From the IMG/VR virus record IMGVR_UViG_3300031857_000807, positions 1 to 32,647 of that record: a stretch of DNA of 32,647 nucleotides. One strand, written 5' to 3'. The notes beneath the pieces are model-generated. The model ran no database searches. It had not been told where the DNA came from and worked only from the letters and a program-made list of their open reading frames with translations. Below are positions 1 to 19,645 of this stretch, in pieces (the first letter of the stretch is position 1; every line of letters starts with the position of its first letter). This stretch comes from a virus. Made by a program: the position numbers and the translations under genes.

Positions 1-729
1 TGAGCGTATTCTTTTATCATACTGTAAAAAATATAGCCCATGTACTAGCTCCTGAGATCTATGCTTAACTACTCTAATAGTAGGATAGAATCCATCGTTA
101 ACCTCAAAGCGCTGGAGTATATAAGCGAACTCTACCAGGTTAGCTAAATTTTTAGATCCTCTTATATCGTTAAGATTAATTAGCCTTCCCATAGAGTCCG
201 TAGCTTTAGCGTCTGTATGGGCGATAATAATAGTAGCTATGTTAAGTCTGGTAGTAGCTTCCTTAAGCTTCTTAGAGAAAGATCCCTGCTCCTTAGCTGT
301 CTTATCATTGTAGAGAGCGCTGGTAGTAATGTTATCGAAGATAAGTACATCTGGTCTAAAGAAGTCTAACCACTCGAAGAAGGTAAGCTCGCTCACGGTC
401 TTAGACTCTAGCTCAGAGTAAGCATTAGTAGTTAATAGCTTATCATGGCTAGGCATACCGTAAGCTACTTGGCGCTTATAATCGTCTACCGTTTCCTCGC
501 TTAACCAGATACCTACCGATAGCTCATTTTGGGGGTTAAAAATAATATCTCTTAAAAGCGTCCTGACGAGCGTTGACTTGCCTCCCCCTGTGGTACCAAG
601 GACCAGGTGTAAAGAAGCTCGCCTAAGCCCATTATGAGCGTTTAGGAAGCCTAATCTGGAGTGGGCATGGACCTGTTTTAGCTTATCCTCGTACTGCTGC
701 TGGTCGTCATTAGTAAAATACAGCGTCAC
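1..729 (-). CDS. DnaB/RepA-like replicative helicase (partial, 3' end outside window)
   Basis: RecA-fold ATPase likely to unwind DNA at the phage fork. Translating the complement from GTG at 729 gives an open frame that runs off the left edge without a stop. Walker A (GTTGGGKST) lies near residue 45 and Walker B (VLIFDN) near residue 125. A later IIIAHTDAK segment fits the sensor region of DnaB-type helicases. The N-terminal domain is much shorter than in DnaB, so primase binding through that domain is unlikely. The GTG start is chosen because AAGGGG sits six bases upstream. The replication initiator gene lies just upstream on the same strand, which supports a replication module. A RepA-type helicase or another RecA-like ATPase is possible. 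Confidence 0.8.
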   Translation of the reverse strand, partial: MTLYFTNDDQQQYEDKLKQVHAHSRLGFLNAHNGLRRASLHLVLGTTGGGKSTLVRTLLRDIIFNPQNELSVGIWLSEETVDDYKRQVAYGMPSHDKLLTTNAYSELESKTVSELTFFEWLDFFRPDVLIFDNITTSALYNDKTAKEQGSFSKKLKEATTRLNIATIIIAHTDAKATDSMGRLINLNDIRGSKNLANLVEFAYILQRFEVNDGFYPTIRVVKHRSQELVHGLYFLQYDKRIRS

Positions 730-759: not shown

Positions 760-1566
760 TTATTTAGTAAACCCATAATCGTACGGTACTACTTTCGCTG
801 CTGCTTCTTCGAAAAAAGCTTTTAGATTAAAATCTGCTTCGCTCAGATTACCCTTCAAGCGCTTGTTATTATCTCGCTCTATCCAGCTAGATAGGAATGA
901 TCCTGCATGGCGCTTTTTATTCTCATTTTGCCAGTAGAAAGCTTTCTCAATCGTATTCGCCAAGTATTCTTCGTCGTATTTTTTTAGGAGCTTTTCCTGG
1001 ATAGGTAAAGATCCTTTACGAAGCCAGGTATTAATTTCAGGATCGGTAAAGTTAAGCACTTCTAGCGGTGAAACATTAACACTGAGCGTAGAATTTTGGT
1101 AAGAAGCCTTCTCCTTTTCCTTAGCCTTATCCTTAACCTTAACCTTAGCTTTATCTTTATCCTTCTCCTTAATACTATCGCTAGTATTGCTATACTCTAT
1201 GGATAGAGTATATAATCTACCTACTTCTAATGAGTTATAAGTAATACTTTCTTTACTCAGTGCATCCATAACGGAGCCGTGAACTTTAGACGCAGGGTTT
1301 AATTTTCCGTACTGAAAGTCTAAAAATTTTGGAATGAAGTATTTGAACTCGCTTAAACGGAGTACTCTATCACTAAAAAAAGTAGATATATCGTCATCTT
1401 TAAACTTCTCTTTTAGTACTAACTCTACCAGCTCTAAATCTATCGTTACTATACCAGCATGGTTACAAGTACAGAGTAAATATTCCCATAGAAGCTTATG
1501 CTTACTAGATAATCTTCGATACCAGGGATCTGTAAACTTCTCAGTATCAGTAAAACGCTTGGCCAT
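760..1566 (-). CDS. Phage replication initiator / helicase-loader-like protein
   Basis: A 268-residue protein with the layout of phage replisome organisers. Residues 1-110 resemble a winged-helix DNA-binding domain, residues 132-154 are an alternating lysine linker (KDKAKVKVKDKAKEKEK), and residues 165-268 form a smaller domain that could contact the helicase (inferred). It lies directly upstream of the helicase gene on the same strand. The ATG has a strong site (AAGGGGGTATTAT) before it. The linker is encoded by hexamer repeats flanked by two perfect inverted repeats, so the gene may contain the origin, as lambda O does. Family assignment is by layout and context, not by a decisive motif. 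Confidence 0.7.
   Translation of the reverse strand: MAKRFTDTEKFTDPWYRRLSSKHKLLWEYLLCTCNHAGIVTIDLELVELVLKEKFKDDDISTFFSDRVLRLSEFKYFIPKFLDFQYGKLNPASKVHGSVMDALSKESITYNSLEVGRLYTLSIEYSNTSDSIKEKDKDKAKVKVKDKAKEKEKASYQNSTLSVNVSPLEVLNFTDPEINTWLRKGSLPIQEKLLKKYDEEYLANTIEKAFYWQNENKKRHAGSFLSSWIERDNNKRLKGNLSEADFNLKAFFEEAAAKVVPYDYGFTK
1106..1171. repeat. Eleven imperfect tandem hexamers (NCCTTA) inside the initiator gene
   Basis: On the plus strand the bases read as consecutive hexamers gccttc, tccttt, tcctta, gcctta, tcctta, acctta, acctta, gcttta, tcttta, tccttc, tcctta. Five in a row (1118-1147) match NCCTTA exactly. On the coding (minus) strand the unit is TAAGGN, giving alternating lysine codons. The array may simply encode the basic linker, or act as iterons bound by the initiator. 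Confidence 0.85.
1171..1188. repeat. Perfect inverted repeat, 7-base arms
   Basis: AATACTA (1171-1177) and TAGTATT (1182-1188) are exact reverse complements with four bases between them. The repeat abuts the hexamer array inside the replication initiator gene and lies three bases from a second, longer inverted repeat. Confidence 0.85.
1191..1212. repeat. Perfect inverted repeat, 10-base arms
   Basis: TATACTCTAT (1191-1200) and ATAGAGTATA (1203-1212) are exact reverse complements around a GG centre. The near-palindrome is coding (about residues 118-125 of the initiator), yet is perfectly symmetrical, which protein coding alone does not require. It is followed by an AT-rich stretch. Confidence 0.88.
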
Positions 1567-1661
1567 ATAATACCCCCTTATAAGTGATCTTTAAAAAACT
1601 GCTGCCTAAATAGGTAATTATTATAGATAAGCTTAAAATTAATTTTCTACAATTAAAAAAA

Positions 1662-19613: not shown

Positions 19614-19645
19614 CACAAAAAAGCAGGGGATTTCTCCCCTGCTTT
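19614..19645 (-). terminator. Strong terminator after the fibre gene
   Basis: AAAGCAGGGGA and TCCCCTGCTTT are perfect 11-base arms with a four-base loop (TTTC on the plus strand), followed on the minus strand by TTTTTT. It closes the transcript from the fibre gene. Confidence 0.88.

Follow-up and report, generated by a model that had tools for sequence, protein, structure and literature searches.

A replication origin placed inside the gene of its own initiator is a known kind of arrangement. For example, the origin of phage lambda lies in the middle of gene O, where the iterons are inverted repeats of ∼19 bp, spaced at 20–24 bp and followed by an AT-rich tract that is needed for unwinding (PMC7466680). 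In the genes of the P335 lactococcal replisome organizers, such as Rep2009/ORF16 of Tuc2009 and ORF13 of TP901-1, direct repeats bind the protein and act as the origin (PMC8965321). Gene 38 of SPP1 contains internal direct repeats together with an AT-rich unwinding element (oriL), at which gp40, a helicase of the DnaB family, is loaded (PMC6316719). In the plasmid pSK41, four Rep boxes occupy the middle of rep, in the part that encodes a dispensable linker; between pPR9 and pSK41, ∼500 bp containing the N-terminal domain and the origin have been exchanged with the C-terminal domain kept, and pPR9 replicates autonomously (PMC5703833). Within oriC of Bacillus subtilis, short tandem motifs in single-stranded DNA adjoin the double-stranded initiator sites, and their reading on one strand directs helicase loading (PMC10201434).

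Here, we analyze a locus in an IMG/VR virus record of a phage from environmental DNA; the whole stretch (32,647 bp) is referred to as the window. An initial annotation had placed a candidate origin within a replication initiator gene, and this placement has gained support from constraint across the family, from codon-shuffle statistics, and from the PHROGs matched by relatives. Judged by these comparisons, the segment 1,105–1,212 is very probably the phage’s origin of replication, contained within the gene that encodes its initiator. This is the best explanation for the segment; the initiator family itself is uncharacterised. The features of the locus are as follows.

760–1,566, minus strand: initiator-like gene encoding 268 amino acids, which holds the candidate origin (open reading frame, and PHROGs matches of relatives)
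1,228–1,566, minus strand: N-terminal DNA-binding-like domain, codons 1–113 (AlphaFold2, pLDDT mostly >90)
1,072–1,227, minus strand: disordered linker, codons 114–165, the DNA of which is the candidate origin (AlphaFold2)
763–1,071, minus strand: C-terminal helical domain, codons 166–268 (AlphaFold2)
1–729, minus strand: P-loop ATPase, DnaB-like or primase-helicase related, running off the window edge (phrog_239, 1.2e-18; phrog_19, 5.6e-13)
1,191–1,212, no strand assigned: palindrome 1, 10-bp arms and GG centre, two inverted 11-bp half-sites (exact)
1,171–1,188, no strand assigned: palindrome 2, 7-bp arms and 4-bp centre, two more half-sites (exact)
1,105–1,170, minus strand: eleven tandem hexamers, pattern ANRGNW on the coding strand (Tandem Repeats Finder, codon register)
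1,207–1,266, no strand assigned: AT-rich flank on the palindrome side, 28% GC (base composition and stability)
1,073–1,613, minus strand: exchange cassette of DNA-binding domain, palindromes and array (replaced as a block in the sister phage L003; blastn)

The initiator gene and its protein

The protein was modelled with AlphaFold2 from 35 aligned relatives. Its first 113 codons are conserved in a 20-sequence alignment (A2), and the predicted order of helices and strands suggests a winged-helix-like arrangement; this reading uses that order only, because a Foldseek search against the PDB gave no significant match for the window protein. In the linker, pLDDT is <50 over residues 114–118 and 120–165, and the palindromes and array occupy codons 118–154 within it. 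The C-terminal domain is retained in sister phages that have a different N-terminal domain.

Several aligned relatives match PHROGs described as ‘replication initiation protein’, ‘O-like’, ‘DnaD-like helicase loader’, and ‘replisome organizer’. No Pfam, NCBIfam or PHROG model matched the window protein itself, no Pfam family matched the 20 aligned N-terminal domains, and a sequence search of the PDB matched nothing. Membership of the lambda O family was considered and rejected, as the window protein has no homology to O detectable with Pfam, PHROG or NCBIfam; a few relatives match O-like PHROGs. A RepA_N initiator (PF06970) was also rejected, with no Pfam match to it in the window protein or in the 20 N-terminal domains.

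In the window and in relatives, a helicase or loader gene adjoins the initiator gene, as the class of initiator-embedded origins requires; nine of the ten relatives tested have a DnaB-like or primase-helicase-like gene immediately downstream. A DNA methyltransferase-like gene at 1,914–2,495 (phrog_757, 5e-64) is divergent from the initiator gene. By comparison with the sister record G001, the window seems to cover almost the whole genome, with its ends inside the helicase gene; if the genome is circular, ∼1 kb is missing.

Palindromes and a hexamer array in the linker DNA

Both of the perfect inverted repeats that had been reported are exact. Palindrome 1 reads TATACTCTAT-gg-ATAGAGTATA and palindrome 2 reads AATACTA-tcgc-TAGTATT. 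Their centres are 22 bp apart, and 11-mers on the coding strand tile across 1,169–1,212 as TATACTCTATC / CATAGAGTATA / GCAATACTAGC / GATAGTATTAA, giving four half-sites; the two palindromes are predicted to be, and probably are, binding sites for the initiator. In the sister phage L002, the 10-bp-arm palindrome is kept despite two changed codons, and palindrome 2 is identical. An arm of at least 10 bp arises in 0.4% of synonymous codon shuffles of the gene (760–1,566), and two arms of at least 7 bp within 60 nt arise in 0.13%. Across the whole window, only two inverted repeats have arms of at least 9 (loop up to 8), at 1,191–1,212 and at 19,620. The second of these (19,620–19,645) is a strong hairpin with 11-bp arms and flanking A/T runs, and is probably a bidirectional terminator.

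The initial annotation described hexamers followed by palindromes and AT-rich DNA. The array and the palindromes do adjoin directly; read in the direction of the gene (minus strand), the palindromes precede the array, and the AT-rich DNA flanks the palindromes and not the far end of the array. This flank (1,207–1,266) is the least stable 60-nt step within the part of the gene examined (nt 241–630).

On the coding strand, units 1–6 of the array are AAGGAG, AAGGAT, AAAGAT, AAAGCT, AAGGTT and AAGGTT, and units 7–11 are AAGGAT, AAGGCT, AAGGAA, AAGGAG and AAGGCT; Tandem Repeats Finder gives a period of 6 with 10.8 copies at 1,107–1,171. The count of eleven tandem units made at the outset holds, with the qualification that NCCTTA, the motif proposed for the plus strand, is exact in six and the rest differ from it at one or two positions. 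The pattern ANRGNW was defined after inspecting the sequences. Nowhere else in the window does CCTTA occur more than twice in a 66-nt stretch. The window array is not significantly more repetitive than synonymous shuffles (combined 6-mer repeat test, p = 0.13; inverted repeats only, 0.055), because the alternating Lys codons already repeat. Since the window gene alone is not significant in this test, we rely on palindrome-specific and family tests, and take the evidence for the array from relatives. The array is predicted to be an unwinding or helicase-loading tract, and this role is probable.

Constraint on the DNA in relatives

An alignment-based search gave 80 viral loci from at least 483 confirmed relatives, and 23 further loci are in bacterial genome records (Bacteroidota, Elusimicrobia, Bdellovibrionota and others); among 50,697 named phage records, the N-terminal domain is in Pan5 only. 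Grouping of the viral set at 75% identity, with the window and Pan5 included, gives 30 clusters. A K/D-type array of 4–11 units is present in 26 of these clusters, and the other four have no array recognisable under the pattern used. In the window and the family, the initiator gene encodes its DNA-binding and C-terminal domains on either side of the sites.

Within the 60 nt before the array, 6.8 direct 6-mer repeats were observed compared with 1.25 expected from synonymous shuffles (26 clusters), with p < 0.05 in 17 of the 26 genes. For inverted repeats the values are 2.3 observed and 0.55 expected (8 of 26 genes), and the remaining 60-nt steps of the relatives’ genes are near background. Homologues with the same linker and no repeats or symmetry had been named as evidence against an origin; most K/D-linker clusters instead have repeats just before the array. 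The repeat spacing is most often 11 bp (16 of 26 clusters), corresponding to one helical turn and out of frame. Because 11 is not a multiple of three, successive copies fall in different reading frames and cannot arise from peptide repeats. As controls, lambda O, with its known embedded origin, scores p = 0.005 in the repeat test, Tuc2009 Rep p = 0.005 and TP901-1 Rep p = 0.03; one of 25 other window genes scores p = 0.045, which is the chance expectation.

The expectation that the sites would be kept while synonymous positions drift was borne out in two groups of relatives, as well as in the shuffle statistics for the 26 clusters. In one group of 28 relatives, synonymous differences are 0.30 overall but only 0.02 in the repeats and 0.07–0.11 in the array, and the amino acids over these elements vary more than average. 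In the second group they fall from 0.144 to 0.00–0.04 over the site, with low stretches also near the C-terminus. On these comparisons, the repeats or palindromes and the array are under DNA-level constraint in the relatives. Between the window and L002 alone, the longest unchanged codon run is not significant (p = 0.34). Their arrays differ by one hexamer gained and one lost, the ten shared units have no substitution, and 13.6% of positions differ in the remainder of the gene; 98 nt are without substitution when the hexamer gain and loss are set aside (∼6e-7, for a region chosen post hoc).

Codon usage in the family arrays also follows the DNA pattern. Even codons end in T in 81% of cases compared with 66% under the null (p ≤ 0.001), and Lys is encoded by AAG in 52% compared with 37% expected (p ≤ 0.001). 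Between K[DE] units, Val takes the place of Asp 13 times and Met that of Lys five times, but Arg takes the place of Lys only once; the Val and Met replacements are radical for the protein and the DNA pattern is kept. Lys/Asp linkers such as MDMDKEMDMDKDKVMVKKK would make little sense as protein and fit a repeating DNA hexamer, and the linker part of the protein sequence appears to be dictated by the underlying DNA site. Constraint on the array is less secure than that on the repeats, because slippage and concerted evolution could add to its uniformity. Purine content on the coding strand of the family arrays is 81%, compared with 56% elsewhere. The array is the least stable gene segment in the family (dG/step −1.154 vs about −1.25; GC 0.30), whereas the AT-rich minimum in the window is on the palindrome side.

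Some relatives have other arrangements. The initiator genes of L056 and L062 contain 12-bp in-frame iterons, GAAGGGTCTACG, in three to four copies that encode GSTE before the array, and the next large downstream open reading frame in L056 is a terminase instead of a helicase. In L103 (3001–3639), an HNH endonuclease domain (PF14279, 1e-11) is joined to the N-terminal domain of this initiator family, and there is no hexamer array; in L101 (3001–4053) the N-terminal domain is followed by an HNH domain (PF13395, 0.0002) that precedes a later K/E-rich stretch. These fusions recall the origin-directed nuclease Odn of ICP1 (PMC8263062), and by this analogy they may be origin-cutting weapons or may reflect insertion of homing endonucleases.

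Exchange of the DNA-binding domain with its sites

Alignment with blastn matches L003 to window positions 1,072–2 at 88% (the C-terminal domain and helicase gene) and 1,674–1,614 at 79%, with no match between 1,073 and 1,613. The replacement N-terminal domain in L003 is of the Lin1244_N type (PF14297). Another phage with this type of domain, L115, has a related C-terminal domain and contains AACTTGCC four times at an exact 11-bp pitch, with a purine-rich array after the four repeats. The block swap in L003 and the layout in L115 show that the DNA-binding domain, its sites, and the tract travel as a unit. In a further Lin1244_N-type relative (L124:2762–2828), five tandem 12-bp repeats of GGTAAGGGTATA encode GKGI.

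Proposed mechanism and alternative explanations

Comparison among relatives shows the constraint on the sites, their position between the domains, and their co-transfer with the DNA-binding domain. In the mechanism that we propose, the N-terminal domain would bind the four half-sites tiled at an 11-bp pitch (1,169–1,212), and the bound initiators would put strain on the neighbouring purine-rich array of hexamers (1,105–1,170) or open it. The C-terminal domain would then bring the DnaB-like helicase, encoded next door, to the opened tract, and replication would start at 1,105–1,212. This course of events is the most likely one and parallels those of lambda (PMC7466680) and SPP1 (PMC6316719). 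Mapping of the start by GC skew, which the initial annotation suggested, adds weak support. Detrended minima are near the site in the window (1,879) and in G001 (29,613, against 29,924 for its palindrome). A change of gene orientation at the same places confounds these minima, the breakdown by GC3 is weak, and Pan5, which has all genes on one strand, gives no GC-skew signal. The DnaA box TTATNCACA, with one mismatch allowed, is at chance level in the window and absent from 1,000–1,300. A DnaA-dependent origin with DnaA-trios was rejected, as there are no DnaA boxes beside the array.

Different explanations can be proposed for the same elements. The sites could bind the encoded protein for autoregulation, or could be a partition or packaging signal, with replication starting elsewhere. 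Palindromes are a typical form of operator, autoregulation is common among iteron initiators, and binding alone would account for the constraint on the sites and for their transfer together with the DNA-binding domain. Against this, the sites are inside the gene, away from the promoter, and have an array attached; helicase genes adjoin, and experimentally assigned origins share this anatomy, so that we consider this explanation improbable. An account at the level of protein only, in which the charged K/D linker serves as a tether that is flexible or contacts DNA, codon bias and replication slippage produce the hexamers, and the palindromes are due to chance, is already disfavoured, and we give it very little weight. 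In its favour are the dominance of K/D alternation, the gain and loss of hexamer units, and a window array that is not significantly repetitive by itself; such an account nevertheless conflicts with the out-of-frame 11-bp repeats, the lost synonymous change, the wobble bias, the replacement of Asp and Lys by Val and Met, and the palindrome shuffles (p about 0.001). The palindrome with 10-bp arms could also form a hairpin in the transcript, and the palindromes might then act in mRNA to control translation or termination. They are AT-rich and have no U-run, and most relatives have direct repeats, with no hairpins, at the same place; because of these direct repeats, the RNA-hairpin explanation is rejected as extremely unlikely.

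An origin embedded in the initiator gene would provide a sequence-based route to replication origins in hundreds of uncultured phages (at least 483 relatives). The K/D linker, which is odd as a protein feature, would be explained by a repeating DNA hexamer, and the domain and origin would form a cassette that sister phages exchange. Neither the 11-bp pitch across the family nor the DNA-dictated hexamer linker appears to have been described; no description of the initiator family or the hexamer array was found in the open-access literature, which is no proof of novelty.

Comparison with known systems

The likeness to lambda that had been proposed holds for the anatomy, with dyad sites of ∼20 bp followed by a purine-rich tract inside an initiator gene. 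As in lambda, the window has dyad sites, in this case two with centres 22 bp apart, and then a purine-rich tract; unlike lambda, it has two dyads instead of four, and a hexamer array instead of an A-rich tract. The arrangement had also been thought distinct, and it is less so than claimed because the experimentally assigned origin of Tuc2009 has the same two-part layout. The Tuc2009 rep gene (L127:3427–3546) contains four copies of CAACCA at an 11-bp pitch, with a purine tract of TAGGAT/TAGGTT/TAAGGA immediately after them. The window differs from Tuc2009 and TP901-1 in the sequence family of its N-terminal domain and in having half-sites arranged as palindromes.

The exchange between pPR9 and pSK41 resembles the difference between L003 and the window, although these are plasmids of Firmicutes and not phages. 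In SPP1, helicase loading has its own protein, gp39, and there is a second origin, oriR; neither a separate loader nor a second origin was identified in the window phage. The comparison with the DnaA-trio and DnaD recognition elements of oriC is an analogy only, as those elements have a period of 3, the window array has 6-nt units, and DnaA boxes are not in excess. By this analogy, we tentatively suggest that the hexamer array could be a hitherto unrecognised, strand-specific code in the single-stranded DNA of phage origins, equivalent to DnaA-trios and DnaD recognition elements, that would be read after melting by the C-terminal part of the initiator or by the helicase. Such a code would be shared by unrelated initiators (the initiator family, the Lin1244_N types, and Tuc2009 Rep), and the Lys/Asp-rich linkers would largely be its by-product. 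This is a speculative reading that we hold to be rather less likely than its absence. The presence of an 11-bp pitch and a hexamer tract in Tuc2009 as well makes a common single-strand helicase-loading code of phage origins testable.
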